DNA from: Planctomycetota bacterium
GTDB taxonomy: Bacteria > Planctomycetota > Phycisphaerae > UBA1845
DNA length: 41,338 bases
Direction: 5' to 3'
Assembly (NCBI GenBank): GCA_024278695.1
Contig: JAJRSR010000131.1
Coordinates: 1 to 41,338, forward strand
Positions 9,124-40,537 of this stretch are shown piece after piece (the stretch's first letter is position 1; the number at the start of each line of letters is the position of its first letter). A model generated the notes under the pieces. That model did no database searches, had not been told where the DNA came from, and saw only the letters and a list, made by a program, of their open reading frames with translations. Position numbers and translations under genes: made by a program.

Positions 9124-9558
9124 CTAGGAAGGGACTTTCGTCGCGCCCAAGGTGGCGAGCGCATCAAGTTCTCTTTCGTGGGCTAACAGGAAACGGCTCA
9201 CCATCTCGGCCGTCTCAGTGTCGTCGCTAACACGCTCGCCCGCGGCACGGTATTTGGCCACCAGACGCTCATGATCGGCCATCAGTCGCGGTAACACGCG
9301 GTGCAATTCCTGAAAGTGCAAATCGGCAGACTCGAGACTACCACAACGCAACCGTGGCTCACCGCCAAGACGACTCACCCGCCCTGCCAACGCCCGCTGG
9401 CACGTTGTCGATTGTGCCAACATCTGATCCGCCAACTGTGCCATAACCACCGACGGACTCGACACATAGACGATAGACTCAAACAAACGGGGCGCAATCG
9501 CTCGCTGCTCGGCCGCGAGCAACTCGTTAAGCACAGCCAGGACGGTCTGTTGGCTCAT
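9124..9558 (-). CDS. Ferritin-like four-helix protein, last gene of the nuo operon
   Basis: A 144-residue, all-helical protein. LLAAEQRAIAPRLFES, LMADHERLVAKY and FLLAHERELDAL resemble ferritin-like/rubrerythrin helices with Glu and His at ligand-like spacing. The second helix reads QMLAQSTTCQRAL, where a canonical ExxH pair is missing, so a normal di-iron site may be incomplete. Its ATG overlaps the nuoN TGA (ATGA), so it is co-translated with complex I. It might handle iron or peroxide near the complex, but this is an inference; the family assignment is from pattern only. Confidence 0.55.
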   Translation of the reverse strand: MSQQTVLAVLNELLAAEQRAIAPRLFESIVYVSSPSVVMAQLADQMLAQSTTCQRALAGRVSRLGGEPRLRCGSLESADLHFQELHRVLPRLMADHERLVAKYRAAGERVSDDTETAEMVSRFLLAHERELDALATLGATKVPS

Positions 9559-11183
9559 TGCCCCGCCTCCTGGTCAGCAACCGCAAGCGACTCATGCGAG
9601 ACCGGCGACGTAACCGTAACGGAATACAAGCTGGTCGAAAAACCCGCAACCCGTTCCTTAAACGGGCCTGCCGCGAAGAACAGCACGAGCAGCACGACCG
9701 CACAAACGTTGACCAAGGCAAGCCCGGACAACGGCGAACTGAAAGCGGGGCGCCTGCCGGAATCACGTATCCCCATCTGCACGACGATCCGCATGTAGTA
9801 GTAAAGACTGATAAGCGTGTTCACCGAAGCGACGACCACGAGCGACCAACCGAGCAACGTACCCGTCTGCCCCAGCGCGACCAGAATCCACCACTTGCCG
9901 ATGAAGCCGGCCATCGGCGGCATGCCGATCAGCGACATCAACGCGATGACCATCGGCACCGCCAAGAGCGGCGAGCGACGGATCAACCCATTGAACCCCT
10001 CAATATCGTCCGTACCCGCCTCCCAAGAGACCATTGCCGTGACGCCAAACGCACAAAGATTCATGAACATGTAGATCACGATGTACATGAGCATCGCCGA
10101 CATACCCGCCCCTGCGCCTGAGGCGCTGGGGTGAATAAAAACGGCCGTCGCCATCATCATATAGCCGGCATGCGCGATCGACGAGTAGGCCAGCATCCGT
10201 TTGACGCTTTGCTGCTTGTAAGCGGCGAAGTTTCCGACCGTTGCGGTAACTGCGGCAAGGACGCCGATTACCCAAGCGAGCGGTGTCAGCAGATTCATAT
10301 TGAGCTCAGACGGCACGGCCGCACACATCATCGACATGAAACGCGCCAGCATGACCAAGCCGGCCGCCTTGCTCGCGACACTGAGCCATGTGGTCACTTC
10401 GATCTTGGCACCCTGGAACGCATCCGGGCACCAGAAGTGAAACGGCACAGCCGAAATCTTGAACGCGATGCCCACGAACACGCAGGAGAGCGCCACACCG
10501 AGCAGGGTCACGTTTGCGCCGCCGCTCATCTGTGCCACCGTAAAGGCGGCGATCTCCGTCATGCTCAGACTGCCGACCAAACCGTAAACCAAACTCGTAC
10601 CGTAGAGCATGATCGCCGCACACACCGCACCGAAAATCATATACTTCAGCGACGCCTCAGCACCGACGCGATCACGCTTGTCGAAGCCGACAATGGCATA
10701 ACTGGGAATGGATGCCATTTCAATGGCGATCACCATCGTCAAAAGGTTGGCCGAACTGACCATGAGCGACATGCCCAGGGCGCTGCCTATCAGTAAAATG
10801 AAAAACTCCGGGGCATTGCGCTCGGTCCGGGCGGAACCCATCAACCACAGCAGACTCACACCCGCGAGAAAGACCATGAGCAGTAGCTGAAAACCGACGG
10901 AGAGCTTGTCCGCAACCAGTAAACCGAGAAACGGCTCTGCGGAGAACCCGCTCACCGCCGCATCGCCGACCGTACCCATCACCCGCCACGCCAGGAAAAA
11001 CGTGACCGCAATGCCGAAGGAAGCCGCGACCGAAATGGTCCTGGTACCGCGACCGATGACAATCGGACACGCCACGATCAGGAGCATCGTGCAGACCATC
11101 GCGATCATCGGCGAGAACAGAAACAAGTCCCTGCCGACGTCAAACGCTTCCCACAAATTGGTTTGTCCCAAGAGGCTGTTCAT
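9555..11183 (-). CDS. nuoN: NADH-quinone oxidoreductase subunit N
   Basis: A 542-residue antiporter-like membrane subunit of complex I, one of three proton-pumping modules. Family marks: IEMASIPSYAIVGF with the conserved Glu, KISAVPFHFWCPDAFQGA around the discontinuous helix, VKRMLAYSSIAHAGYMMM, and a late MPPMAGFIGKWW containing the lysine-bearing helix. ATG 11183 lies 19 bases after nuoM. A downstream ferritin-like gene overlaps its stop. Numerous hydrophobic segments fit about 14 helices. Confidence 0.95.
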   Translation of the reverse strand: MNSLLGQTNLWEAFDVGRDLFLFSPMIAMVCTMLLIVACPIVIGRGTRTISVAASFGIAVTFFLAWRVMGTVGDAAVSGFSAEPFLGLLVADKLSVGFQLLLMVFLAGVSLLWLMGSARTERNAPEFFILLIGSALGMSLMVSSANLLTMVIAIEMASIPSYAIVGFDKRDRVGAEASLKYMIFGAVCAAIMLYGTSLVYGLVGSLSMTEIAAFTVAQMSGGANVTLLGVALSCVFVGIAFKISAVPFHFWCPDAFQGAKIEVTTWLSVASKAAGLVMLARFMSMMCAAVPSELNMNLLTPLAWVIGVLAAVTATVGNFAAYKQQSVKRMLAYSSIAHAGYMMMATAVFIHPSASGAGAGMSAMLMYIVIYMFMNLCAFGVTAMVSWEAGTDDIEGFNGLIRRSPLLAVPMVIALMSLIGMPPMAGFIGKWWILVALGQTGTLLGWSLVVVASVNTLISLYYYMRIVVQMGIRDSGRRPAFSSPLSGLALVNVCAVVLLVLFFAAGPFKERVAGFSTSLYSVTVTSPVSHESLAVADQEAGQ

Positions 11184-11202
11184 TACTGCTGATTCACTTC
11201 CA

Positions 11203-12879
11203 CTAGCCGATCAATCCGCCGCTCACCGCCGACTGCGACACCATCGCGATCGCGTTGGTTACTTGTTGCAGCATCAGGTCCAAGGTGCCGTTGGTGAAGT
11301 TAAACACCGTCTGCGTGGGGAAGATCCCCAACGCAATGCAAAGTACCGCGAGTGATGCGAGAATAAAGGTCTCGCGTCCCGACACGTCCAAATAGCCTTT
11401 GTATTCCTCGCGTTCCTTGCCGAGGTAGACCCGGCGGATGAGCCACAAAATATACGCCGCCGTCAAGATCACACTGGCGGCCGCGATGATCGCCAAGGGG
11501 TAGGCCCACGGGTACTTCGCACCGGCGTCGAACGTACCAAGTAGCACCCACACCTCACCAATGAACCCGCACATGCCGGGCAAACCAAGCGACGCGAAGA
11601 ATCCGATCGTGGCCATCGTGCCATAGCGCGGCATCGTCAGCCAGAGCCCGCCAAAACGGTTGATCTCACGGTGGTGGGCACGGTCATAGATCACACCGAC
11701 CAAGAAGAAGCACATCGGTGAGCTGATCCCGTGGGCGATCATCTGAAACATCGCCCCCTGGAAGCCGGCCTTGGTCATCACCGCAATCCCCAGCAGCACG
11801 AACCCCATGTGCGACACGGAACTGTAGGCCACCAGCCGCTTGAAGTCCGTCTGCGCCAAAGCGCACAACCCGCCATAGATAATGCTGATAACACCGACGC
11901 AGGCCAAGACGTACGCCCACACCTCTCCGCCGGTAGGAAAAATCGGATAGCAGAGCCGTAGAAAACCATACCCGCCCATCTTCAGGAGCACGCCCGCAAG
12001 GATCATACTCACCGGCGTGGGGGCCTGGACGTGAGCGTCCGGCAGCCAGGTGTGGAACGGGAAAATCGGCAGCTTGATCGCAAAACCGATGAACAAGAAC
12101 ATGAACATCACAGTCGCAAACTTCATCCCCAGAAACAACGTGGACCCGGAGGCGAAGTAGGACTGAATCGTCGGGCAGGTCGCCAACTCGATCAGATCAA
12201 ACGTGCCGTGTTGCAGCATCACGCCTTCGAGGTAGCCGCTGGCGACCGATCCACCAGCCGCCGCGATCGCATCCCCGCTGTAGAAGAACATGGCCACCAA
12301 CGCCACGAGCATGAGTACGGAACCGGCCAACGTGAACAAGAAAAACTTGATCGCGGCGTACTCCTTCCGCTCGCCACCCCACACGCCGATGAGAAAATAC
12401 ATCGGCAGCAGCATCACTTCCCAGAAAATGTAGAACAGGAAGAAATCCAGCGCGACAAATACGCCGAGCATGCCCGTCTCAAGCAGCAAGAACAGGAAGA
12501 AATAAGCCCGGATGCCCTTGTTCACCTTCCAACTGTTAAAGTTCCAACTCGCGAGGCACGCGAGAAACGACACGAGCGTCGTCAGCACGACAAGCGGGAA
12601 CGCCAGACCGTCCACCCCGAGGAAGAACTCAATCGAAAAGCTATCGCCCATGATCCACGGCAAGCGGATCACATGGTGCAGCGTGCCGTAGCTGGTGCCG
12701 AAGATCGCTGTGGCATCACTGCCGCCGCCCCCCAAAAACGTCGGGAACAGCCAGAGCGATAGCCCGAGCGTCGCCGCCGAACTAAGCACGGCCACCTGCC
12801 GCACCAAGTTCTTGGGCACCACCAAGCACGCCACGGCGCCGAGCATCGGAAGGAACACAATGGCCGTTAACAGATTCAT
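11203..12879 (-). CDS. nuoM: NADH-quinone oxidoreductase subunit M
   Basis: A 558-residue antiporter-like pump subunit. Visible motifs: FYIFWEVMLLPMYFLIG with the key Glu in helix 5, AIKLPIFPFHTWLPDAHVQAP with the central Lys, VAYSSVSHMGFVLLG, and MCGFIGEVWV, where the distal residue is Glu as in other NuoM. I use ATG 12879 (MNLLTAIVFLPMLGAV), preceded by an AAGGGTGG-like site; the frame continues upstream to 12936 without similarity. It lies 84 bases after nuoL and 19 before nuoN. Confidence 0.95.
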   Translation of the reverse strand: MNLLTAIVFLPMLGAVACLVVPKNLVRQVAVLSSAATLGLSLWLFPTFLGGGGSDATAIFGTSYGTLHHVIRLPWIMGDSFSIEFFLGVDGLAFPLVVLTTLVSFLACLASWNFNSWKVNKGIRAYFFLFLLLETGMLGVFVALDFFLFYIFWEVMLLPMYFLIGVWGGERKEYAAIKFFLFTLAGSVLMLVALVAMFFYSGDAIAAAGGSVASGYLEGVMLQHGTFDLIELATCPTIQSYFASGSTLFLGMKFATVMFMFLFIGFAIKLPIFPFHTWLPDAHVQAPTPVSMILAGVLLKMGGYGFLRLCYPIFPTGGEVWAYVLACVGVISIIYGGLCALAQTDFKRLVAYSSVSHMGFVLLGIAVMTKAGFQGAMFQMIAHGISSPMCFFLVGVIYDRAHHREINRFGGLWLTMPRYGTMATIGFFASLGLPGMCGFIGEVWVLLGTFDAGAKYPWAYPLAIIAAASVILTAAYILWLIRRVYLGKEREEYKGYLDVSGRETFILASLAVLCIALGIFPTQTVFNFTNGTLDLMLQQVTNAIAMVSQSAVSGGLIG

Positions 12880-12963
12880 CCCAAAACCACCCTTGTGACA
12901 GAACCACCTAGCCGCAGCACTGCGTTCTCGCAGCACCGCCTTCTTACGCCAAAGCCCAACAAC

Positions 12964-15330
12964 CTACCCACCTAACGAGGCAACCGAGGGAATCAGGAGC
13001 CGATGGCTCGGCTCGGGCTTGAACACTAAAATCAAAATGACCACCGCAGCAACCATCGCGGCGAACATGACATAACTGCGAATGCGCCCCGTCTGCGGGC
13101 TACGAACCACATCGGAAACATCCAGCGACGTTTTCGAGATACCGTTCACGATGCCATCGACACCGTGCACATCCACAAACCGACCAATGAACACCGCGAA
13201 CCGCTCCGTCGCGCTGCCGAGCAGGTTGTACGCGAGATCGAGCACCCAGGTGTCAAAAAACCGCGCGACCGTGGCCACGACCAAACAGCCCTTGATCCAC
13301 ACCAAGTGGTACAGTTCGTCAATAAAGTACTTCTTTTCCAACAACGTATGCAGCGGGCCGGCCGTCCGCTTGATCTTTTCTGCCACATCCAAACCGCGAC
13401 CGTAGATCCCGATCGCCAACGCAAAACCCGCAACGAACGAGCCGCCCACAGCATAAACAAGGTAGCTGTGCGCGGCGCTCATGGCCGGGGTATGGGTGGT
13501 GCCATCAATCGCCAACACCATCGCTGCGTCCGTCGCATCAGGTGCAGCGTGAGCAAAAAGATCACGAAATACGAAATAACTGGCGAAGGCCGTACCACCA
13601 GCGAGAACCGCAAGCGGGATATACATCATCGGCGTCTCGTGCGCGTGGTCGTACACGTGCTGATCGCGGGGCTTGCCCATGAATGTCATCCACCACGCCC
13701 GCATCATGTAAAACGGCGTGATGTATGCGGTAGCCAATGCCAGATAGAACATCCATTTCGGCAGCGGCGGCGTGTTCTCGAAGATAGCCGCCTTACCCGT
13801 AGCGTGCGATCCGCCGTGAGCGCTGGCCCCATGCGCGGTTGAACCGTGACCAGAATCACCGTGAGCCGGATCAGAAGCGAGAATCACACGTGACGCTCCA
13901 ACCTTGACCGCAGACGCGTGCTCATCGGAACCGTGCCCACCGCCGTGGCCTTCCTCTACGCGTTCGTATGACGTCCATTCATGCGAACGCACATAGGCGA
14001 CGGCCAGAATCTCGTCTTTACTGAAAAATCCGCCAAGCCCAATGCCCGCACCACCAACCTTCACACCCGCAATACCCGCGCCGGAAATCGCCAGCACGCC
14101 GATGAAAAACGTCCAACACGTTACGGGCATTTTCTTGCGAAGCCCGCCCATCCGGCGCATGTCCTGCACATGGTGGCAGCCTTCGATCACCTGTCCGCTG
14201 CCGAGGAACAACATCGCCTTGAAGAACGCGTGCGTCACAAGATGAAACAGCGCAGCGACCCAGGCACCGCAGCCCATACCGAAAATCATGTAGCCAAGCT
14301 GCGAGAGCGTCGAGTACGCCAGACATTTCTTGATATCAACTTGCACCAGCGCGATCAGCGCCATCAACGTGAGCGTGATGCAGCCGATGGCCGCGACGAA
14401 CATCAACGCCTCCGGCGTCATCAATCTAAAAACCCGCGCGACGAGATAAACACCAGCCGCCACCATCGTAGCGGCGTGGATCAGCGCACTCACCGGGGTG
14501 GGGCCGGCCATCGCGTCCGGAAGCCATACATGCAACGGGAACTGAGCGCTCTTGCCCATCGCCCCGCAGAACAGCCCGATGCCGAGAATCGTCGCAAGGC
14601 TCCAGCCGAACATGGTGAAACCGCTGGCGAAGATACCTGAGCCCGCAGCGTACTGCTCGCCAAAAACCACAGCGGCCTGATCGAGATCGAGCGTCTTGAG
14701 ATGGAAGAACACCAGCATCATGCCGATCAAGAAACCGAAGTCACCCACACGGTTGGTGACAAACGCCTTGATCTGAGCGTACTGCGGCGTCGGCTCGTGG
14801 AAGTAGAAACCGATCAGCAGGTAACTGCACAGACCCACTAGCTCCCAAAAGATAAACAAGAACAGCAAGTTGCTGCTCACAACAAGCCCGAGCATGGAAA
14901 ACGCGAACAGCGACAGATACGCGAAGAACCGCCAGTACTTTCGCTTACCATCCACCTCATCACTGTGCCCGGACATGTAGCCGATGCTGAAAAAGAAAAT
15001 CCAAAACGCGATGAACGTCACCATGAAGAACATGGCAATCGTGAGTGAATCAAGCTTGATGCCGATGTCAATACTCACGCCGCCGATCGTCGCCCAGTGG
15101 AACCGCGCGGCGTTCTCAGTCAGCGCGGCGCGCGTGGCATCATCCACCCTGAGCCAACAGAGGAGCACATAGGTGGCCAGCACCAGCGGCACGCCCATAC
15201 CGGTCACCAGCGCAAACCAGCCGGCCCCAGGCTTGCCCAAGACGCGTCCCCCAAAGACCAGCAACCAAAAGCCGATCATGGGCGACAGCACGCCGAGCGC
15301 CAAACAGATTTCGTAAGTGTGTCCCGTCAT
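12964..15330 (-). CDS. nuoL: NADH-quinone oxidoreductase subunit L with a His-rich insertion
   Basis: A 788-residue distal pump subunit, far longer than the roughly 610-660 usual for NuoL. Functional residues are in place: Glu163 in FWELVGLCSY, Lys260 in MGKSAQFPLHVWLPDAMAGP, and Lys438 in GFFSKDEIL. The extra length is mostly a loop at residues ~450-515 rich in His, Gly, Ser and Ala, just before the helix starting WMFYLALATAY. The C-terminus has the long amphipathic-helix region and final membrane anchor. Start ATG 15330 (MTGHTYEICL) leaves a 14-base gap to nuoK; an in-frame start at 15411 would overlap nuoK. Confidence 0.94.
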   Translation of the reverse strand: MTGHTYEICLALGVLSPMIGFWLLVFGGRVLGKPGAGWFALVTGMGVPLVLATYVLLCWLRVDDATRAALTENAARFHWATIGGVSIDIGIKLDSLTIAMFFMVTFIAFWIFFFSIGYMSGHSDEVDGKRKYWRFFAYLSLFAFSMLGLVVSSNLLFLFIFWELVGLCSYLLIGFYFHEPTPQYAQIKAFVTNRVGDFGFLIGMMLVFFHLKTLDLDQAAVVFGEQYAAGSGIFASGFTMFGWSLATILGIGLFCGAMGKSAQFPLHVWLPDAMAGPTPVSALIHAATMVAAGVYLVARVFRLMTPEALMFVAAIGCITLTLMALIALVQVDIKKCLAYSTLSQLGYMIFGMGCGAWVAALFHLVTHAFFKAMLFLGSGQVIEGCHHVQDMRRMGGLRKKMPVTCWTFFIGVLAISGAGIAGVKVGGAGIGLGGFFSKDEILAVAYVRSHEWTSYERVEEGHGGGHGSDEHASAVKVGASRVILASDPAHGDSGHGSTAHGASAHGGSHATGKAAIFENTPPLPKWMFYLALATAYITPFYMMRAWWMTFMGKPRDQHVYDHAHETPMMYIPLAVLAGGTAFASYFVFRDLFAHAAPDATDAAMVLAIDGTTHTPAMSAAHSYLVYAVGGSFVAGFALAIGIYGRGLDVAEKIKRTAGPLHTLLEKKYFIDELYHLVWIKGCLVVATVARFFDTWVLDLAYNLLGSATERFAVFIGRFVDVHGVDGIVNGISKTSLDVSDVVRSPQTGRIRSYVMFAAMVAAVVILILVFKPEPSHRLLIPSVASLGG

Positions 15331-15344
15331 ACGTCGCTTTCGCG

Positions 15345-15659
15345 CTAGCCTTGAAGCCTCGAAGCCCGGTCCACGTCGACCGTGCCCAGGTTTGAATATA
15401 CGTTGATGCAAATCCCGACGGCAATCGCCGCCTCAGCGGCGGCCAACACGATCACGAACAGCGCCGTGATCTGTCCGTCCAGCTTCTGCCCGCCCAAGTA
15501 ACGATCAAACGCGACCAGATTGACGGTCGCACTGTTAAGCACAAGCTCCACGCCGATCAAAATCCCGATCGCGTTCCGCTTGGTCATCATGGTGTACAGC
15601 CCGGCGCAAAACAGCACGACGGCCACGATGAGATAATGAGTTAAACCAATCGTCAACAT
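15345..15659 (-). CDS. nuoK: NADH-quinone oxidoreductase subunit K
   Basis: A 104-residue three-helix membrane subunit. The two conserved membrane glutamates are visible, in LIGVELVLNSATVNLVAF (Glu38) and AAAEAAIAVG (about residue 74), which relay protons between the quinone site and the pumps. The start lies 3 bases after the nuoJ stop, so translation is coupled. Confidence 0.95.
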   Translation of the reverse strand: MLTIGLTHYLIVAVVLFCAGLYTMMTKRNAIGILIGVELVLNSATVNLVAFDRYLGGQKLDGQITALFVIVLAAAEAAIAVGICINVYSNLGTVDVDRASRLQG

Positions 15660-15662
15660 GGT

Positions 15663-16271
15663 TCAGTTCTTTTCCTGACGCGCCAAATGCGCCGCCCCGA
15701 CCATCACCACCATCAACAACACACCCGCAACCTCAAACGGCACGAGGTACGTCGTGAGCAGCGTCTTGCCAAGTTGATCCATCGTAGCACCGGCGACGAC
15801 GCCCTCCGCGCTGTGCCATTCGGTCCGCATCAGCACGACACACAAACTCACCGCAAGCGTGAGCGCCACCGCAGCGGCGGCCGCCAACTCCAACTTCGGC
15901 ACATCAAACCGCGCCCAAGGGGATTTACTGGTCAGCATGACACCGAACACGAGCAGCACGAGCGTACCGCCCGCGTAAACAATCAACTGCACCGCACCGA
16001 GGAAGTTGGACGCGAGCAGGAAGTACGTCATGGCCACCCCGCCGAGCGTCACGAAAAGCCAGACGGCCATCCGCACGATGTTCTTGCTGAAGCAAACACC
16101 CAACGCCGAGCCGCACACCAAAAACGCGACCGCGTAGAACACCAACGCCTCAAGAAGCCCGCCCGGAGCCTGCGCTTCAGTCACACCGGCTGGCGTCTGA
16201 GCCAACGCCGGCACCGCCAGCAGCAACGAGGCCGCCGTGAACGCTGGAAATAATTTCTTAGGCAAAAACAT
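15663..16271 (-). CDS. nuoJ: NADH-quinone oxidoreductase subunit J with a signal-peptide-like N-terminus
   Basis: A 202-residue membrane subunit next to NuoK. FYAVAFLVCGSALGVCFSKNIVRMAVWLF and FLGAVQLIVYAGGTLVLLVFGVML are the family core, including the helix with the pi-bulge region. The first ~24 residues read like a Sec signal peptide: basic start, hydrophobic core AASLLLAV, then PALA before Gln25. This is followed by a linker before the canonical first helix. Such a presequence is not part of textbook NuoJ; it might be an extra helix or be cleaved. Confidence 0.93.
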   Translation of the reverse strand: MFLPKKLFPAFTAASLLLAVPALAQTPAGVTEAQAPGGLLEALVFYAVAFLVCGSALGVCFSKNIVRMAVWLFVTLGGVAMTYFLLASNFLGAVQLIVYAGGTLVLLVFGVMLTSKSPWARFDVPKLELAAAAAVALTLAVSLCVVLMRTEWHSAEGVVAGATMDQLGKTLLTTYLVPFEVAGVLLMVVMVGAAHLARQEKN

Positions 16272-16318
16272 TTTTCAAAACCAACCACGCGGCACGTAAC
16301 CGCCCAAGTTCAACGTCA

Positions 16319-17893
16319 CTACGAGCCCGGCAGCGCATCCACCACAAGATTACCCACCAGACTTCGACGGTGATAAAAACCATACGCCGCGATGGCCGGG
16401 AACATGAGCGCAAAGCCCATCCCGACAAGCCCGACGACCACATTGCAAACCAACGCAAACGTCGCCCACGCGCCGCTATCCGACATCGAAGCGAGCACCC
16501 ACGCCGCGTTACCCAACAACAACACCATCGTCAGCGGCAACAGCACCTGCACACACGCATAGAGCACCTGATCGATGCGAACACGCGGCAGCGTCCACCG
16601 CAACCAAATCTGAACGAACAAAAAGAAGACGCACTTGCTCACAAACCAGATCGGACCGCTAAACAGCAGGCCCCGCACGCCATCCATGTACCACGCGTCG
16701 CCCCACGACGCCCCCCAAGCCGAGGGCAGCGGGGAGTTCCAACCGCCGAGGAACATAATCACCGCAAGCCCGCTCACCACGAACATGCCCGCGTATTCCG
16801 CAAAGAAAAACAAACTCCAACGGAAGCCGGAGTATTCGGTATGAAAGCCGGCCACCAGCTCGCTCTCAGCCTCGGGAAGATCAAACGGGGCACGCTTGCT
16901 GCTAGCCAACGACGCAATGAAGTAGGCAACAAAAGCGAGAAACGTGAACGGATTGCGAAACGCGATCCAGGTGAACCATCCGCCGGCCTGAGCCTCACCA
17001 ATGTTCTTGAGACTAATTGAACCCACGCAGAGCACGGGAATGAGCAACGCCATACCCATCGGAATCTCATACGAGACCATCTGGCAGGCCTCGCGCATCG
17101 CGCCGTAGATACTCCACTTGTTGTTCGACGCCCAGCCGGACAGGATCACCGCGAACACCTCGATCCCCAGCACGCCGAGGATGAACAGCAGCGCCACGTC
17201 CAACTCGCGAAACATGTACGTCGCCCCGAGCGGGAACGCAATGAACGACAGCAGCACAGGGATGATCGCAAAGTACGGTGCCACGCGGAACAGCTTATCG
17301 TCCGCGTCATCCGGGATCAGATCCTCTTTGAGCAGCAGCTTGATGCCGTCGGCCGGCGACTGCGACCAGCCATGCCATCCGCCCACACGCATCGGCCCCA
17401 GCCGCGACTGGATGCGACCGGCCACCTTTCGCTCCAACCAAATCGTAAACACGGGAATCAGGTTGAACAGACCGATCAAACCGCCCATGCCGATCACATC
17501 CCTAACGATGCGAAACTGCAACGGCCAGAGGAGAAACTTCAGCACACCGGTGGCCATGCCGTCAGCGGCCTGCAACCGCGATTCAACCACCGAAGGCGGA
17601 ACACCCCACGTCACCGGTGACATATACTCAAACTCGACACCCGTGATACGCGTCCCGGCCGAAAGAACCACGTCGTCCACATAATGAAACACGATCGAGT
17701 GTGCCCAAACGGCCAAGCACACCGTCACCACCGCACCGATCATAATCATGCCGGAAAACCGGCTGACGATCGGCGCACCGATGGCGTACACCATCTTGGC
17801 GATACCGACGATGATGCCCGCGAAGAACCCGAACTGCGTCGGACGCTTCTCCTGCCAGGGCACCCAAAACTGATTCACCGCACCGTTACTCAT
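16319..17893 (-). CDS. nuoH: NADH-quinone oxidoreductase subunit H with a long N-terminal extension
   Basis: A 524-residue membrane subunit that forms the quinone chamber with NuoB and NuoD. The family core begins near residue 135: WLERKVAGRIQSRLGPMRVG (152-171), QSPADGIKLLLKEDLIP, and further on SNNKWSIYGAMREACQMVSYE and FDLPEAESELVAGFHTEYSG, all highly conserved. About 115 residues precede it, with at least two additional hydrophobic segments (roughly 24-45 and 48-70). The ATG at 17893 is used; later Mets would still leave a long extension. It is placed 50 bases after nuoD. Confidence 0.95.
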   Translation of the reverse strand: MSNGAVNQFWVPWQEKRPTQFGFFAGIIVGIAKMVYAIGAPIVSRFSGMIMIGAVVTVCLAVWAHSIVFHYVDDVVLSAGTRITGVEFEYMSPVTWGVPPSVVESRLQAADGMATGVLKFLLWPLQFRIVRDVIGMGGLIGLFNLIPVFTIWLERKVAGRIQSRLGPMRVGGWHGWSQSPADGIKLLLKEDLIPDDADDKLFRVAPYFAIIPVLLSFIAFPLGATYMFRELDVALLFILGVLGIEVFAVILSGWASNNKWSIYGAMREACQMVSYEIPMGMALLIPVLCVGSISLKNIGEAQAGGWFTWIAFRNPFTFLAFVAYFIASLASSKRAPFDLPEAESELVAGFHTEYSGFRWSLFFFAEYAGMFVVSGLAVIMFLGGWNSPLPSAWGASWGDAWYMDGVRGLLFSGPIWFVSKCVFFLFVQIWLRWTLPRVRIDQVLYACVQVLLPLTMVLLLGNAAWVLASMSDSGAWATFALVCNVVVGLVGMGFALMFPAIAAYGFYHRRSLVGNLVVDALPGS

Positions 17894-17943
17894 GTCTCAC
17901 TCTTGGTTGCTGCTCGTCACGAGCACACTACACGCACGTTTCG

Positions 17944-19143
17944 CTAACGATCCACTTCGCCCATCACCACGTCGATACTACCGATGATGGCCGGCACATC
18001 CGCAAGCAGCACGTTCTTAGCGCAGTGCTGCGTAATACACAGATTCGAAAAACTCGGACCGCGTGCCTTTACGCGGTACGGGATCGCCGAGCCGTCGCCG
18101 CGCACATAGAAGCCCAGTTGGCCTCGCGGGTTTTCCACCTCGACGTAGATTTCATCGTCCGGAAGTTTGACGGTCGTGCCCTTCTTCGCACGAAACTCAC
18201 CGTCCGGAAGCTGATCCATCGCCTGACGCATGATGCGCACGGACTGCGTCATCTCCAACACGCGAACGAAGTACCGGCTCCAGCAATCACCAACCTCAAC
18301 CCCCTGCGGGATGACACCCGTACCCGGCGGCTCGGCGATGGGGATTTCAAAATCGTATTTTTCGTAGCCGTCGTACGGCAGCGCTTTTCGCAGATCAAAC
18401 CGAATCCCCGATCCGCGAAGCGGGGGACCGGTCAAACCAAACGCGATGGCCTCCTCCTTGCTGATCACGCCGACACGCCCGGTTCGCTTGATGAAAATAT
18501 GGTTGAACGACAACAGGTTGTTGTAGTCGTCGATCTTCGTCTCGAAATAGTCCAAGAACTCACGACAACGATCGATCCAACCATCCGGCACATCATCATG
18601 CACGCCGCCGATGGTGATGTAGCTGTAGGTGAGCCGGGCACCGCAAGCGGCCTCGAACAGATCGAGGATCATCTCGCGTTCACGGAAGCAATAAAGAAAC
18701 GGCGTGAACGCGCCCATGTCCAGCCCGTATGTCCCGAGCGACACGAGGTGCGACGCAATGCGGTTCAGCTCTGCGAAGATCACCCGCAGCGCTTGCCCGC
18801 GCGGCGGAACTTCCATCCCCGCGAGCCGCTCCACCGCAATCGAAAACGCCTGGTTGTTGTTCATCCCGGCCAGGTAGTCCATCCGGTCGGTGTACGGAAT
18901 GTATTGATACGGCTGAACCGCCTCTCCGATTTTCTCAGCACAACGATGCAGATACCCGATATGCGGCACGGCCTCCAGCACCATCTCGCCATCGGTGCGA
19001 AGCACGATCCGCAACACGCCGTGCGTCGATGGGTGCTGCGGTCCCATATTGACCAGCATTTCCTCGGTGCGCAGATCACCCTGCTCGACCCGATCATGGT
19101 CGATCAACACGTCTGGTTGAGATTCGAGAACTACATCGCTCAT
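17944..19143 (-). CDS. nuoD: NADH-quinone oxidoreductase subunit D (49-kDa type)
   Basis: A 399-residue peripheral-arm subunit related to [NiFe]-hydrogenase large subunits that lines the quinone pocket. Motifs: VNMGPQHPSTHGVLRIVLRT with the quinone-site His, PHIGYLHRCAEKIGE, MDYLAGMNNN, ELNRIASHL, and the C-terminal SIDVVMGEVDR. Hydrogenase nickel cysteines are absent, as expected. NuoD is a separate gene rather than a NuoCD fusion. Two non-complex-I genes separate it from nuoC; the nearer one ends 36 bases upstream. Confidence 0.96.
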   Translation of the reverse strand: MSDVVLESQPDVLIDHDRVEQGDLRTEEMLVNMGPQHPSTHGVLRIVLRTDGEMVLEAVPHIGYLHRCAEKIGEAVQPYQYIPYTDRMDYLAGMNNNQAFSIAVERLAGMEVPPRGQALRVIFAELNRIASHLVSLGTYGLDMGAFTPFLYCFREREMILDLFEAACGARLTYSYITIGGVHDDVPDGWIDRCREFLDYFETKIDDYNNLLSFNHIFIKRTGRVGVISKEEAIAFGLTGPPLRGSGIRFDLRKALPYDGYEKYDFEIPIAEPPGTGVIPQGVEVGDCWSRYFVRVLEMTQSVRIMRQAMDQLPDGEFRAKKGTTVKLPDDEIYVEVENPRGQLGFYVRGDGSAIPYRVKARGPSFSNLCITQHCAKNVLLADVPAIIGSIDVVMGEVDR

Positions 19144-19179
19144 GCCGTCAAGTCCGCCATTCGGGCAAAGCCCCGTAAC

Positions 19180-19467
19180 TCATACTTCCCGTACGTTTCG
19201 ATCGTATTCGTCGAGCTCCATCGGATGTACAGCCATGAGAAACAGGAGCGATTCTTTCGTCACATGCTCCTGCAGGTACGACCATATCATTTTCTGACGC
19301 GCCGACAGTCCAATGTCGCGAAAGCCATCACTGCCAATCAACGCACGAAGGTGCTGCCACTCAGTTTCATACACAAAAACCTTAGTAACAGCGCCGCCAG
19401 CGACGAACCCATCAAGCGCAGCCTCTATCTCTCGCTTGGCTGTTAGGATATTGCTTTTGACAACCAT
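19180..19467 (-). CDS. Small BolA-like protein, partner of the HEPN protein
   Basis: A 95-residue protein from ATG 19467, which lies inside the end of the HEPN gene (25-base overlap), so the two are co-translated; an in-frame start at 19500 is possible. I do not recognise it with certainty. Its pattern resembles BolA: a first helix KREIEAALDGF, a strand region HLRALIGSDGFRD, then LSARQKMIWSYLQEHV (compare the BolA helix after F-x-G with RHRxVYxxL) and a final PMELDEYDR helix. BolA proteins usually bind iron-sulfur clusters or DNA; the usual BolA cluster ligand is not evident, so this may be only the fold. It lies between nuoC and nuoD, and the role is unknown. Confidence 0.6.
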   Translation of the reverse strand: MVVKSNILTAKREIEAALDGFVAGGAVTKVFVYETEWQHLRALIGSDGFRDIGLSARQKMIWSYLQEHVTKESLLFLMAVHPMELDEYDRNVREV

Positions 19468-19889
19468 GGGATCACGCCCTCCGGCACGCCAACGAGACAA
19501 TCCAAAAAGTCCCTTGCCGTTGGTTCGTCAATTACTCTTGGATCCTGGTACCGAATCGAGGGATTCCCGTCACCATCACTCCACAGTCCAACGACCTGCT
19601 TAAAGTTTAACCAAACCAACAAATCGTCCTTCAACCGCTTCTCCAACCCGGTGTAGAGCAACAAGCTCTCCAGGTTATGCGTCTTAAACGTCGCCAGCAG
19701 CGATCCCCAATCAAGCCGCACACAAATCGCTGCCTTTAGATAGCACTCGACCGCATACCCCGCCAGGTAAACGGCTCCAGCGTATTCACCAACCTCAAGC
19801 AGTGCTTTCGCCTCACGCAAACGAGCCTCACCAATTCGCTCCAACGTCTCGCGAGGAATGATCGGCTTTGTCTGAAGCGTGGGTGCCAT
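19443..19889 (-). CDS. HEPN-domain protein inserted in the nuo operon
   Basis: A 148-residue helical protein. LEVGEYAGAVYLAGYAVECYLKAAI (29-55) is the HEPN second-helix signature (A-x(n)-YAVE-x2-LKA), and KTHNLESLL (69-77) is the conserved T-H-x-L helix. HEPN proteins often form toxin-antitoxin pairs, mostly with MNT nucleotidyltransferases, and many toxins are RNases with an R-x4-6-H motif. No such motif is visible here, so RNase activity is doubtful. It begins 7 bases after the nuoC stop and its end overlaps the small BolA-like gene. Its role could be toxin, scaffold or complex I accessory factor; only the domain call is firm. Confidence 0.8.
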   Translation of the reverse strand: MAPTLQTKPIIPRETLERIGEARLREAKALLEVGEYAGAVYLAGYAVECYLKAAICVRLDWGSLLATFKTHNLESLLLYTGLEKRLKDDLLVWLNFKQVVGLWSDGDGNPSIRYQDPRVIDEPTARDFLDCLVGVPEGVIPWLSKAIS

Positions 19890-19896
19890 GGTTCAT

Positions 19897-20430
19897 CTAG
19901 TGCCGTGGGTTCGTCAGTTCAAACTCCGTTGTCGCCGGGATCCCGTGGTACTCCAACGGGAAATCGTAATCCTTCCGTAGCGGGTAGCCCTCCCAATCAT
20001 CCGGGCAGAGTATCCGCCGCAAGTCGGGATGATCCGTAAACACAATCCCGAACATGTCATACGCCTCGCGCTCGTGCCAATCGGCGGCGGGCCACACGTG
20101 TGACACGGTGGGCATGACGGGATCATTCCGATCCACCGTCACCCGAACGGCGAACTCGCTCGTCTCCCTAATCAACACCGTTGGCGTATCCAAACACACG
20201 GTCATCAGGTCATACACGCACGCCAGCTTGTCGTCCGCGAGTAGGTCCAGCCCACTAATACTGCGTAGCAGGTTCATGCGTAACCGCGAGTCATCCCGCA
20301 AGAACGTCGCGACATCAGGCCAGCGCTGCGGCGCGATCTCCGCGTAGGGGTGGCACCCCTCGACGACCATCTTCACGACGTCGTCGCCGAACTCGCTGAC
20401 CAATAGTTTGCCGATCTCTTCAGGTGCCAC
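19897..20430 (-). CDS. nuoC: NADH-quinone oxidoreductase subunit C (30-kDa type)
   Basis: A 177-residue peripheral subunit that braces NuoD and NuoB. The C-terminal signature is [19 protein letters not shown] followed by [18 protein letters not shown], and the N-terminal half has the [16 protein letters not shown] region. It starts with GTG at 20430 and has a weak ribosome-binding site (AAAAGAG). The 144-base gap to nuoB contains a hairpin repeat, which may uncouple the two genes. The HEPN gene follows after 7 bases. Confidence 0.94.
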
Positions 20431-20474
20431 TTACGACTCTTTTTTCGTTTCTAGTTCCGTCGCTCACGCATATT

Positions 20475-20556
20475 GGGTGGCCCATGGCTTTAGCCTTGGG
20501 GGACACGAATCCGCCAACCAATTCGAGCCCCCCACCTCTAAAGAGATGGGGCACCC
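20475..20556. repeat. REP-like hairpin repeat, copy 2, inside the nuo operon
   Basis: GGGTGGCCCATGGCTTTAGC at 20475 continues CTTGGGGGACACGAAT. The core CCCAtGGC-TTTA-GCCtTGGG is an imperfect hairpin. The far end GGGGCACCC is nearly complementary to the opening GGGTGGCCC, so the whole element can fold on itself. It occupies the nuoB-nuoC gap. Confidence 0.65.
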
Positions 20557-20574
20557 ACTGCTTTCCATTTACCG

Positions 20575-21093
20575 CTACGCCAGTGCGACCTCTTTCGCCT
20601 TAGTCACGAGACTCTTGGCTCGCGTCTGGTGACGAATCTTGTCTTGCAGCCGCATCAGCCCTTCAAGCAGCGCCTCCGGACGCGGCGGACACCCAGGGAT
20701 ATAAATATCCACGGGGACGACTAGGTCCACGCCCTTCACCACGTGGTACCCGTGCTTGAAGTAGGGGCCGCCGCCAACCGTACACGCGCCCATCGCCATC
20801 ACATATTTCGGATCCGGCATCTGGTTGTAGAGCCGCTTGAGCCGTGACGCCATCTTATACGTCACCGTGCCCGCGACGATCATCAGATCACTCTGGCGCG
20901 GCGTGGCCCGGAACGCCCCAGCACCAAACCGGTCAATATCAAAACGAGACGCACCGACGGCCATCATCTCGATCGCGCAGCACGCCAAGCCGAACGTCAT
21001 GGGCCAAATGCTGCTGCTGCGTCCCCAGTTGATCGCCCAGTCGAGCGATGTCACGATCAGACCCTCTTCGAATCGGTTTTCGATCCAACTCAT
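20575..21093 (-). CDS. nuoB: NADH-quinone oxidoreductase subunit B (PSST type)
   Basis: A 172-residue subunit that carries cluster N2, the last electron donor to quinone. Ligand motifs are complete: the tandem Cys in [11 protein letters not shown], then [10 protein letters not shown], and [16 protein letters not shown] 21093 is preceded by GGAG at a 7-base spacing; an in-frame start at 21114 is less well placed. It sits 45 bases downstream of nuoA. Confidence 0.96.
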
Positions 21094-21138
21094 ACGCTCA
21101 CTCCGATTCGCCAATCGCGCCGCAGGCGCACCCGATCA

Positions 21139-21705
21139 TCACGACCCCGCCCCAGCCGGCTCCGGCACGGTCGTCTCCACAACCGGGTCACTGGCACACG
21201 CGGGCGCTGGAACTGGCAACAGCGCTTCCGCATCTTCCTGAGCGTCACTCGATCGCACCCAGTTCAAATAACCCGACTTCCATTCGTACATGAACGGTAT
21301 CGCGATCAGCACGAAAAACACGAAAAACGCCCAAAAACCCGGAGCGCCGAGATCCTTAAACGCCACGGCCCAAGGCCAAAGCAGCGCAACCTCAACATCA
21401 AACACGATGAACACCAACGCCACCGTGTAAAACCGCAAATCAAACTGCACCCAGCTATCGCCGATCGCCGGCTCACCGCACTCATAAGCAGCGCCCTTTT
21501 CCGGATGCGGTAGCTTCGGCCTAGCCAAACTTCCGAGCGTCAACCCAACGAACACAATACCAAAACCGGCCGCACAAAACATGAGCATACCCAGCACCAA
21601 CATCACGTTGCTGTTACTGCCGGCGGGTCCAGTCTGCGCAACAACCGACTGCGCACCGAACACCGTCGCTACGCTCTGAGTTGCCAAGATGCCGACCGTT
21701 GCCAT
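21139..21705 (-). CDS. nuoA: NADH-quinone oxidoreductase subunit A with N- and C-terminal extensions
   Basis: A 188-residue membrane subunit, versus about 120-150 in most bacteria. Core motifs: PHPEKGAAYECGEPAIGDSW, with the loop Cys that senses the active/deactive state in mitochondria, and FYTVALVFIVFDVEVALLWPW with membrane acidic residues. About 30 extra residues come first (Ala/Val-rich, ending VVAQTGPAG, presequence-like), and a tail of ~40 residues rich in Ala, Pro and Glu follows. GTG 21708 directly precedes ATG 21705; I use the ATG. Confidence 0.94.
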   Translation of the reverse strand: MATVGILATQSVATVFGAQSVVAQTGPAGSNSNVMLVLGMLMFCAAGFGIVFVGLTLGSLARPKLPHPEKGAAYECGEPAIGDSWVQFDLRFYTVALVFIVFDVEVALLWPWAVAFKDLGAPGFWAFFVFFVLIAIPFMYEWKSGYLNWVRSSDAQEDAEALLPVPAPACASDPVVETTVPEPAGAGS

Positions 21706-21762
21706 CACTGTGCGTATCTCACCAATCGAAACCGGCCAATCAAGACCAGCAGGCCAAAACCA

Positions 21763-22383
21763 CTAAGCGTTGTCCGCCAACGCATCCCCCATCGCTACCC
21801 TGCGAGCCTCACGATCGTGCGACATTTTATCGTTTGAATTCGCGAACTCGGTCCATTCCTTCTTCCGCGTCGCCGCCCATTCAGGCAGTTTTTCCTTAGT
21901 CATCCAGAGCGGTTGCGGCGTCTGCAAGCCGTCCTTCGCAAGCTCGGTAAACTCGACGATCATGCTCTCACGGTTGAAGCCCGACATATCGTGAATGTTG
22001 CCCATGTGGATACAATCCGTGGGACACGGGTCCACGCACAGCGCACAAAACATACACTTGGCGTAGTCGATCGCGTAACGCGTCATGAGCCCGCCAGCCG
22101 CGATCCCCGAAACTTTGTCGAGTTTGCGCGGCCCGGTCTTTTCGATATAGATACAATCCACCGGGCACGCCTTTGCGCACAGGTCGCAGGCGATGCACTT
22201 TTCGATTTCGTAAAAATGGAAGCCGCGGTACCTCGGCTGAAGCGCCGGCGCGACATCCGGATACTGAAGCGTCACCGTCTTAGCGAAGCAATACTTCAGC
22301 GAAATCCGCATCCCGATCAGAATCGTAGATACGGTCTGCCAGATATTGTGAAAGTATTCGCGAACCGGACTCATCTGATTCAT
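21763..22383 (-). CDS. nuoI: NADH-quinone oxidoreductase subunit I (TYKY type), first gene of the operon
   Basis: A 206-residue ferredoxin-like subunit with two [4Fe-4S] clusters (N6a/N6b) passing electrons to NuoB. The cluster motifs CIACDLCAKACPVDC and CMFCALCVDPCPTDC are both complete. A long hydrophilic C-terminal tail follows. I start at ATG 22383 (MNQMSPVREYF); the frame extends to 22440 without similarity. Unusually nuoI leads the operon rather than following nuoH, and nuoE, nuoF and nuoG are not present in the window. Confidence 0.95.
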   Translation of the reverse strand: MNQMSPVREYFHNIWQTVSTILIGMRISLKYCFAKTVTLQYPDVAPALQPRYRGFHFYEIEKCIACDLCAKACPVDCIYIEKTGPRKLDKVSGIAAGGLMTRYAIDYAKCMFCALCVDPCPTDCIHMGNIHDMSGFNRESMIVEFTELAKDGLQTPQPLWMTKEKLPEWAATRKKEWTEFANSNDKMSHDREARRVAMGDALADNA

Positions 22384-22455
22384 CTTGCCACCCGAAAAAG
22401 AGCCTGTTGGCGTTGCCCGCACACCGCCGACGCTCCACAACTCAATCGCGGGCGG

Positions 22456-38032: not shown

Positions 38033-38548
38033 CTACTCCCCACATGGCGACACGAGCACCGGTTCCGTTAGCGTGTAGATGTCCGTTGACGCATCGTCGT
38101 CGCTGTCGTTCTCGTCGTAAATGGCCGACTCTGCCGTGAACTCGATCGTAATCTCCTCCGTACAATTCCCACGAAGAATCGTCAATATCACCAGATCCGG
38201 CATCGGAAAAACGGCACGGGCAGGACACGGCGCAACAAACGAAGCGCCTTGGGCCGTGAAATTGCCATCTTCGTCGGGAAGCGGATGATTCGGTGAACCG
38301 TTCCCCCTCAAAGCTGGTTCGCCACCTAAGAGTTCTCCAGCTAGGAAGGTTCGTACCCCAAAGACGACGTCCGAAGCCGGTTCAAGCGTCACAGAATCGA
38401 CGAACCGCCCATGAATCGATAGCGATGCAGAACAGTCACCCCTCAGCAGTAAAAAGTATGAACATCCGGAAGATGGAACCAAAACAACAAACAGGACTAT
38501 ACAGAACTTGAATACTCGGGCGTTCTGCCTGATTGTTCGGACATTCAT
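38033..38548 (-). CDS. Predicted lipoprotein, paralogue 1
   Basis: A 171-residue lipoprotein. Signal segment FKFCIVLFVVLVPSSGC, lipobox SSGC. The mature start has GRFVDSVTLEPASDVVFGVR, resembling the first strand of carboxypeptidase-regulatory/peptidase-associated beta-sandwich domains (G-x-V-x-D-x(n)-P-x-x-D-V). It ends TLTEPVLVSPCGE. The next gene upstream encodes a paralogue with a matching middle (LPxxDGxF, PDxVxLxIxRGxCxEEI) and end. ATG 38548 follows GGAG at 7 bases. No function can be assigned. Confidence 0.75.
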   Translation of the reverse strand: MNVRTIRQNARVFKFCIVLFVVLVPSSGCSYFLLLRGDCSASLSIHGRFVDSVTLEPASDVVFGVRTFLAGELLGGEPALRGNGSPNHPLPDEDGNFTAQGASFVAPCPARAVFPMPDLVILTILRGNCTEEITIEFTAESAIYDENDSDDDASTDIYTLTEPVLVSPCGE

Positions 38549-38589
38549 GGCTTCGCTCCACTGCATTGGTCCCTGAACCAACCGCTGAT
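38545..38589 (-). pseudogene. 15-codon relic of the Cys-rich secreted protein's C-terminus
   Basis: Reads ISGWFRDQCSGAKP then stop, identical in protein to the last 14 residues of the gene ending at 39134. At the four differing codons the differences are synonymous (GGG/GGT, GAT/GAC, TCA/AGT, GGT/GGA). It directly precedes paralogue 1, with its stop overlapping the paralogue ATG, as in the intact copy. It lacks any upstream coding sequence. Confidence 0.7.
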
Positions 38590-38600
38590 CTGGCATGACC

Positions 38601-39137
38601 CTACTCCTCACACGGCGACACGAGAATCGGTTCCGTGATGGTAATGGTTTCCGTGCGCAACACGGATTCCTCCAGCACCACCGTACGAACGACCGACTCG
38701 TTGGCGATATCCAACACAATTTCCTCGGAACAGGCACCGCGCACGATAAGCAACGTCACGATGTCTGGGTCTGGAACACTGGACGTCGGCGGGCAGCCAC
38801 CACTTTGCGAGTCGAGAAAAAAGCTGAAGCCGCCGTCCGCTTCGGGTAGAGGATTTGTGGGTTCTCCGGCTTCCGTCGTTGGGCTGCTAAATCGTATCAC
38901 TTTGCCATCGCGTTCGGCCCGAATACCAAGAAAAACATCGGTGGCCGGCGCAAGCGTGACCGCGTCAACAACCCGCCCTTCAATCGGAAGTTGTGACCAA
39001 CAATGGCCACCCTCAAACGGGAGGAGAAAAAACAAGCACCCTGAAAGCGGCAACAATACAAATAACACTAAACCACCTAACCGGACAAACCACTGTCGCC
39101 GCAGGGTGGGCATTCTTTTCTTAATTGGATACTTCAT
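38601..39137 (-). CDS. Predicted lipoprotein, paralogue 2
   Basis: A 178-residue lipoprotein. Signal: RRQWFVRLGGLVLFVLLPLSGC with lipobox LSGC. The mature protein has GRVVDAVTLAPATDVFLGIR, NPLPEADGGF, PDIVTLLIVRGACSEEI and ends TITEPILVSPCEE, parallel to paralogue 1. The beta-rich pattern suggests a carboxypeptidase-regulatory-like domain. ATG 39137 overlaps the TGA of the Cys-rich secreted gene (ATGA), so they are co-translated and perhaps work together at the cell surface. Confidence 0.75.
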   Translation of the reverse strand: MKYPIKKRMPTLRRQWFVRLGGLVLFVLLPLSGCLFFLLPFEGGHCWSQLPIEGRVVDAVTLAPATDVFLGIRAERDGKVIRFSSPTTEAGEPTNPLPEADGGFSFFLDSQSGGCPPTSSVPDPDIVTLLIVRGACSEEIVLDIANESVVRTVVLEESVLRTETITITEPILVSPCEE

Positions 39138-40537
39138 GGCTTCGCACCTGAGCATTGATCCCTGAACCACCCGCTAATCGCACACGAGGCGTCACCGCTA
39201 ACACACTGGAAACCATTGGTGTAATACTGAGCGGTATGCAGCGCCCCACACGAATGAGCCATCTCCTGAAAGACGGTATTGGCACAACTACAAGGATCTA
39301 GGCTGGCTCCCTCGCAATACCAGTTTCTCGTGCCACCTAGGCTACAACCACCGGCGTTGCCGCAAAACCCGCAATCGCTTCCACTCTCACAGGTAATCCG
39401 CGTACGCGAAAAGGATGATCCACTGCACCCACAGCGTCCTTTCATGCACTTCCTAAATCCGATGGAGACGTTCGGGATGTCGCCGATCATCTGGCAAAGA
39501 TCCACCAATTGATCGCTGCACGAGATGCGGTCGTTTTCGCAGGACTGACCCGTGCCGTCTGGGATGCTCGGACCGAGGCAAGTGACCGGCGGCGTGTAGG
39601 GTCTTGGGATGTCAAGAATGTAATTGATCAGAAGCTGTCCCACGTTCCCGATGAAGGAGATGATGGTCCCGAAAAAACTCGAATGTCCGGCCACGGCACC
39701 GCCGCTGGTGTCCAGGTTGAACATGTTCCCCACCGCCTCCTGAAACCCCGCCTCCGAGGCCGGGTCCGGCAGCGGACCGGTCGCGTCGGAATAGGTCCAG
39801 CCGCCCGTGTAAACCGTCGTGGCCCCCAAAGCCACCACATGGGTCATGACACCGTCAAGATGCAACGTATCACCCTCTTGCCACAGGTTCATCACCAGCG
39901 TCCATCCCTGAGTGACGCCGCCCACTAACGGATCCCCGTCGGTCACGTCAAACGTCATCGAGACGCTATCCGCCCCCGTCCCGCACGCCACGGAACTCGA
40001 ACCCGAACGCACCGTAGCTGTGTCGCCGAAAACAAGCAGCGCAGAATCCCCGCCGGTGGCGCTGGGAACGGGCATGCCGATTTGCAAATTCGCGCCAAGA
40101 CCCTCCGCCTCGACAAACGCGAGCAGCCCCTCCTGCATGTCGGCCAGCGCCGTCGCGATCGAGCCGTCGCAACAGGCACCACCTATCGGCGCAAAGAAGC
40201 AGGCACCGTAGCTACAGCTATCGGCCGTACACGGATCACCATCGTCGCACACAACGCCCTCGCACGAACCCGGCGGCGGCTCCCCGTCATCACAAGGCAC
40301 GCAGAACACCAACCCGCCGGCGATCGCCACCAGATCGTTCGCCTTAACGCCGCTACCCGGTGCGACCGGAAACGACACGCTAACCGGTCCGGAACCGGCG
40401 AAAGCTGCTTGAGCGCCGGTGCAACTACCGGGAACGCAAGCAGCGGCCTGCATGAAGGACGCATCCGGGTGATGCGGTAGGTTGCTGTTGGGGTAGGCAC
40501 GGGCGAGCCTCCCGATCGCCTGGCGCGTGGCCGGCAC
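39134..40537 (-). CDS. C-terminal segment of the Cys-rich secreted protein (frame C)
   Basis: The longest uninterrupted piece of the broken gene, 467 residues from a GTG at 40537. Cysteines cluster at residues ~79-126 (including CDDGDPCTADSC) and in the last ~140 residues, consistent with an extracellular, disulfide-rich protein. The GTG is not a natural start: the frame remains meaningful upstream, to about 40600. The middle part is Gly/Thr-rich (VACGTGADSVSMTFDVTDG) and looks like a beta-rich domain. Confidence 0.55.
   Translation of the reverse strand: MPATRQAIGRLARAYPNSNLPHHPDASFMQAAACVPGSCTGAQAAFAGSGPVSVSFPVAPGSGVKANDLVAIAGGLVFCVPCDDGEPPPGSCEGVVCDDGDPCTADSCSYGACFFAPIGGACCDGSIATALADMQEGLLAFVEAEGLGANLQIGMPVPSATGGDSALLVFGDTATVRSGSSSVACGTGADSVSMTFDVTDGDPLVGGVTQGWTLVMNLWQEGDTLHLDGVMTHVVALGATTVYTGGWTYSDATGPLPDPASEAGFQEAVGNMFNLDTSGGAVAGHSSFFGTIISFIGNVGQLLINYILDIPRPYTPPVTCLGPSIPDGTGQSCENDRISCSDQLVDLCQMIGDIPNVSIGFRKCMKGRCGCSGSSFSRTRITCESGSDCGFCGNAGGCSLGGTRNWYCEGASLDPCSCANTVFQEMAHSCGALHTAQYYTNGFQCVSGDASCAISGWFRDQCSGAKP

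Follow-up and report, generated by a model that had tools for sequence, protein, structure and literature searches.

A HEPN-domain protein and a BolA-fold partner as a recurrent gene pair in planctomycete housekeeping operons: a candidate toxin-antitoxin-type module

Among effectors that attack RNA, HEPN-domain proteins are some of the most common, and the partners known from their two-gene systems are mainly nucleotidyltransferases. The function of the BolA family is still debated, and BolA-glutaredoxin pairs help to load iron-sulfur clusters. The described system closest to the locus presented here is MNT-HEPN (MntA-HepT, a type VII toxin-antitoxin system), which likewise consists of two small adjacent genes, one of them for a HEPN protein, has a patchy distribution, and occurs as an insertion in operons. 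MNT-HEPN modules have been seen inserted in operons of near relatives, and the lysine operon of Thermus thermophilus HB8, not that of HB27, carries one (PMC2701414). MNT is almost always encoded at the 5' position (PMC3710099). The mannitol-operon repressor MtlR also has a HEPN fold, is encoded in an operon, and often has no catalytic motif; HEPN proteins without this motif can be toxic (PMC3710099). BolA proteins carry a totally conserved histidine that ligates iron-sulfur clusters (PMC7538681).

Here, we describe a HEPN gene and a small BolA-like gene in the genome of an uncultured planctomycete (GenBank assembly GCA_024278695.1). The window, which is the whole stretch of DNA analysed, is 41,338 nucleotides of contig JAJRSR010000131.1. 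An earlier note on this DNA had claimed that two genes foreign to complex I lie inside its operon, and this was borne out. The features are as follows.

9555..22440, minus strand: host nuo operon, I-A-B-C-[pair]-D-H-J-K-L-M-N, from the ORF layout
19897..20430, minus strand: nuoC, complex I 30 kDa subunit, upstream flank (PF00329, 141 bits)
19890..19896, minus strand: gap of 7 bp between nuoC and the HEPN gene
19443..19889, minus strand: HEPN-domain protein of 148 aa, candidate effector (PF05168)
19180..19467, minus strand: BolA-fold small protein of 95 aa, candidate inhibitor or partner (ATG at 19467)
17944..19143, minus strand: nuoD, complex I 49 kDa subunit, downstream flank (PF00346, 316 bits)

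The spacing that the note had given is exact to the base: 7 bp after nuoC, an overlap of 25 bp between the end of the HEPN gene and the start of the small gene, and 36 bp from the small gene to nuoD. nuoC and nuoD were named by Pfam, and the other nuo genes by inspection and from their similarity to relatives. Neither a sigma-70-like promoter nor a terminator was found in 19000-20500, from which we infer that the pair is co-transcribed and expressed from the nuo transcript. The source genome contains one HEPN match of this kind and no canonical BolA match. Elsewhere in the window, at 38033-39170 on the minus strand, there are two adjacent, similar lipoprotein-like ORFs, apparently a tandem duplicate.

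The larger protein falls in the four-helix HEPN superfamily, with a score of 29.7 bits for Pfam PF05168, above the cut-off of 22. Its AlphaFold model (pLDDT 94.1) finds solved HEPN proteins at the top of the Foldseek list (1ufb, 1wol, 2hsb; the top six are all HEPN), with a TM of 0.67/0.80 against 1wol. The YAVE-x2-LKA signature is present as YAVECYLKA, and the R-x4-6-H motif is missing, both as first read. Across 118 distinct HEPN relatives, no position of an R-x4-6-H motif is conserved. An E...K / H / RY pattern occurs in 115 of these 118, and Y41, E48, K52, H71, R113, and Y114 are invariant among 29 aligned members.

The small protein had been called BolA-like, which is weak from the single sequence and firm by family profile and structure model. 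Against Pfam PF01722, it scores 17.3 bits and its best near relative scores 20.8 bits, both below the cut-off of 25.7. Single-sequence searches of the PDB with the HEPN and small proteins gave nothing useful. When a profile of 32 partners is compared with the PDB, BolA entries lead (1v60 at 8e-7, E. coli BolA 2dhm at 2e-4). The AlphaFold model (pLDDT 91.3) has the helix-strand-strand-helix-helix-strand-helix order of BolA, and Foldseek ranks 1-9 are all BolA with a probability of 1.00, at E-values that stay above 0.001. Besides the fold and the strand-helix core, the protein shares with the BolA/YrbA family the conserved core phenylalanine F49 (F in 26 and W in 6 of the 32 partners). However, the position of the histidine ligand, where strand 3 begins, is F76 in the window protein, and just 3 of 32 members keep a histidine there. 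Judging from the model, the protein has a BolA fold, yet it is not a canonical BolA, since this histidine is lost. It further differs from the BolA/YrbA family in being encoded with a HEPN protein, and no link to glutaredoxin was seen. Stray Pfam matches of the partner, including the restriction endonuclease RE_NgoFVII, did not recur and were dropped.

These comparisons also agree with the note in that the partner is not an MNT. It is very improbable that the partner is a degenerate MNT nucleotidyltransferase and the pair an ordinary, decayed MNT-HEPN system. A nucleotidyltransferase structure, 2rff, does appear at Foldseek rank 29 (TMq 0.59), but all nine leading ranks and the leading PDB profile matches are BolA, and Pfam gives no nucleotidyltransferase match. 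Compared with MNT-HEPN, the pair has a BolA-fold partner in place of the nucleotidyltransferase, the HEPN gene comes first, and R-x4-6-H is absent. MtlR differs from the pair as a single gene, found in one operon, with no BolA partner.

The pair is not a one-off and recurs in many relatives. It lies at nuoC-nuoD or nuoB-nuoC on ten contigs from nine species or genomes of the planctomycete family, the window included; several loci represent the same genome from two collections, and these ten contigs and nine genomes are the distinct set. The HEPN and small genes lie between nuoC and nuoD at L033/L201, L045/L200, L052-L056, and L197, and between nuoB and nuoC at L058/L195. At L192, the pair is directly 3' of nuoC, and the nuoD end of the contig is missing. 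A diverged pair directly follows nuoJ in four genomes (L178, L198, L199, and L200). Since the same arrangement is present in independent genomes, it is not the product of chance or of an assembly artefact. In most of the 30 nuoD loci read in detail, nuoC and nuoD are 5-160 bp apart.

Other genes are also found at these sites. In one relative (L023), the same nuoC-nuoD site holds an ORF of 206 aa for a transposase of RAYT-like (Y1_Tnp-type) character. L034 and L195 have a Uma2-like protein between nuoC and nuoD, and L195 also has the HEPN pair at nuoB-nuoC; an insert of this kind beside the HEPN pair indicates that more than one type of insert has settled in the nuo operon. L192 and L191, both from genome G454, are each the end of a nuo operon with a HEPN pair of its own, which reflects either a second nuo copy or contamination of the bin.

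The two genes are coupled in occurrence and in sequence, which upholds their proposed association. None of the outcomes that the note had listed as refutations came about: the pair turns up repeatedly, the small protein has a predicted BolA fold, and the genes co-occur. In 114 genomes of the order, there are 58 HEPN and 60 partner matches, and 47 of the 58 HEPN genes are immediately followed, in the same orientation, by a BolA-like gene. The remaining 11 mostly carry another small partner, called type O here, and two have a larger downstream gene. The order is fixed, with the HEPN gene first and the partner second, overlapping or nearly touching. Distances among HEPN proteins correlate with those among partners (r = 0.75, p = 2e-4, 33 pairs; r = 0.77 in the nuo set). 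The corresponding values are r = 0.26 (p = 0.11, nine pairs only) for HEPN against NuoD and r = 0.37 (p = 0.03) for the partner against NuoD.

No HEPN gene without a neighbouring partner-like gene was seen among the 58 matches in 114 genomes. Partners without a detected HEPN gene number 13, of which three, all at known pair sites, are informative, so that this asymmetry is drawn from few clear cases. After nuoJ in L267, a locus of another family (f104), the HEPN gene is a remnant that has lost its middle part, including E48, K52, and H71, by an in-frame deletion, and the BolA-like gene is intact. In L196 (8740-8900), also after nuoJ, a REP-like palindromic hairpin repeat (GTGGCCCA...TGGGCCAC) occupies the place of the HEPN gene of relatives, upstream of an intact BolA-like gene. 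In L259, the partner stands alone after an acyl-CoA dehydrogenase gene. The other HEPN-less partners are probably distant BolA relatives or lie at contig edges; the one at L266 looks like a true BolA.

The presence of the pair is patchy. HEPN occurs in 18 of 51 family genomes, whereas NuoD-like genes were found in 60 of 60 relatives. On the NuoD tree, pair-bearing genomes are scattered among pair-less ones, and presence flips between congeners (G451/G422, G457/G419, and G423/G392). The junctions at G451/G422 and G457/G419 are clean and intergenic. When occupied and unoccupied sites of close relatives are compared, the difference is confined to intergenic DNA, and neither a target duplication nor mobility genes are visible. 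The scatter on the NuoD tree, together with the absence of detectable tracking between HEPN and NuoD, led us to reject the idea of a purely vertical complex I gene.

The pair is also found outside nuo operons, in many cases within or next to other housekeeping operons. With a BolA-like partner, it lies between atpG and atpD (L217), between etfA and an EtfD-like gene (L173 and L175), between the genes for acyl-CoA dehydrogenase and 3-hydroxybutyryl-CoA dehydrogenase (L177 and L190), after groEL (L221), before dnaJ (L222), before ndk (L224), and after citrate synthase (L012). With the other partner type, HEPN is found between ftsH and fusA (L206), after hutU (L174), after a DnaK/HscA-like gene (L205), and after an etfA-like gene (L182). 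At L212, HEPN and an unassigned downstream gene of 144 aa follow gcvP. These contexts were read from short flanks; most flanking gene names were checked with NCBIfam, and the EtfD-like gene, which has no NCBIfam match, was named by eye.

The earlier note had left open whether the two genes form a toxin-antitoxin-type pair or a pair for complex I assembly or regulation. The genomic pattern favours the former, since no HEPN was seen without a partner-like gene, the partner is kept after deletion of HEPN, presence is patchy, and the module hops between host operons. A dedicated role in complex I is unsupported because the module also resides at atp, etf, acyl-CoA dehydrogenase, groEL, dnaJ, and ndk genes and HEPN does not detectably follow NuoD. 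The note had further suggested that the pair shares regulation with respiration; this holds at most by position in this genome. One form of the complex I role is that the BolA-like protein helps to load iron-sulfur clusters during assembly, with HEPN as its adaptor. The BolA fold and the location in nuo and etf operons would suit this, but the loss of the conserved histidine weakens it, the window protein has no cysteine, the module also occurs at atpG-atpD, groEL, and ndk, and most relatives with nuo have no pair. We regard such iron-sulfur delivery as highly doubtful.

The distribution across nuo sites bears on a second regulatory explanation, in which HEPN and the KH-like BolA protein bind or process their own polycistronic mRNA and thereby tune nuo (or etf, or atp) expression, a mode of action that has been proposed for MtlR. 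Of the 28 HEPN matches in the family, nuo operons account for 14, which occupy three positions (B-C, C-D, and after J), although this operon makes up well under 1% of a genome; the 14 are not independent events, as descent or exchange has led to shared sites. Both partner types occur at the etfA site (L175 and L182), and MtlR provides a precedent for a HEPN-family operon regulator (PMC3710099). However, the same module adjoins groEL, dnaJ, and ndk and sits between atpG and atpD, most family genomes do without the pair, presence flips within genera, and HEPN does not detectably track NuoD. We regard a cis-acting post-transcriptional regulator as unlikely.

A role in phage defence was also considered. 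The PADLOC candidate-defence model PDC-M28A matches 9 of 11 HEPN members in its HEPN component; the BolA-like partner is unmatched by it. IMG/VR viral contigs include HEPN proteins of the same family together with the other partner type, and AbiV (9bj6) is, according to its PDB title, a HEPN RNase of a two-component antiphage system. In this explanation, the partner or HEPN senses infection, HEPN attacks RNA to cause abortive infection, and lodging in operons serves expression only. However, PDC-M28A is an unvalidated candidate, and the partners have no convincing PADLOC match, only a weak one to JetB. The genomic context weakens the idea further, because the pairs looked at sit among housekeeping genes and not in recognisable defence islands. 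Altogether, we judge antiphage defence to be quite unlikely.

We consider it somewhat probable that the pair is a self-contained conflict module of the toxin-antitoxin type, lodged in expressed housekeeping operons, and that complex I is merely its host here. Besides the genomic pattern, the PDC-M28A matches to 9 of 11 HEPN members speak for this, as do the published insertions of MNT-HEPN modules in operons (PMC2701414) and the toxicity that HEPN proteins can have without the catalytic motif (PMC3710099). A more specific version is put forward tentatively. The pair may represent a new toxin-antitoxin class, in which a HEPN protein with an alternative active site (E48-K52-H71-R113-Y114) is held by a BolA/KH-fold protein that has lost its iron-sulfur role, and which persists by lodging between the genes of operons that are essential (nuo, atp, etf, and groEL), where deletion would be costly and expression is free. 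HEPN would act on RNA, either cutting it via the non-canonical site formed by these residues or attaching to it so that translation is blocked. The overlapping gene would supply the KH-like partner that binds and restrains HEPN, and the pair would use the transcript of its host operon, having no detected promoter of its own. As a guess, spread may occur by homologous recombination through the conserved flanking genes, which fits the clean junctions without mobility genes. Several points count against the toxin-antitoxin reading. The HEPN gene is first in the operon, where the antitoxin gene usually precedes the toxin gene, and the canonical HEPN active site is missing from the pair. Further points are the small number of clear cases behind the asymmetry of unpaired genes, the nine points of the HEPN-NuoD comparison, and the failure to find a window-type relative among plasmid or phage records.

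If the BolA-fold partner is truly an inhibitor of this kind, it would tie the BolA family to RNA-level conflict, and it may hint at a use of the BolA fold without iron. For the question of how small modules persist in genomes, a patchy, fast-evolving pair lodged near nuo, atp, etf, and groEL genes is an accessible example, with expression, hostage-taking, and recombination through conserved flanks as candidate routes. It also cautions against assuming that a gene works for the essential operon in which it lies. A search of an open-access library found no earlier report of a HEPN protein with a BolA partner, and the pairing provisionally looks undescribed.

HEPN genes with BolA-like partners are found elsewhere in the phylum (L003, L010, L012-L015, L018, and L019) and in a few genomes that bear the labels Planctomycetaceae, Verrucomicrobiaceae, and Spartobacteria (L097, L100, and L104). 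No window-type relative was found by tblastn in plasmid and phage records. Most of the other HEPN matches across bacterial phyla carry the type O partner, which usually starts about 22 bp inside the HEPN gene. Type O is an uncharacterised protein of about 130 aa that ends in DAYIYR (for example, HEPN at L138:3995-4411 with the gene downstream; also among L052-L162), and its combination with the same HEPN family is spread over many phyla and also appears in IMG/VR viral contigs. It has no match in Pfam or PADLOC. The combination shares with the pair the HEPN family, the gene order, the overlap (typically about 22 bp), and the etfA site (L182). Unlike the small protein, type O is not BolA by profile, and a relation between type O and BolA is only hinted at by hhalign (E 0.0025, probability 12%). 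In L270 and L272, the HEPN gene is followed by a protein of about 480 aa and an ATPase-like gene, possibly a three-gene system with a related HEPN. At L263:1812-2438, L264:1570-2124, and L265:1233-1799, a larger protein (about 185-210 aa) is BolA-like in its N-terminal half and has no HEPN gene next to it; in L265, its gene lies upstream of a tgt-like gene.
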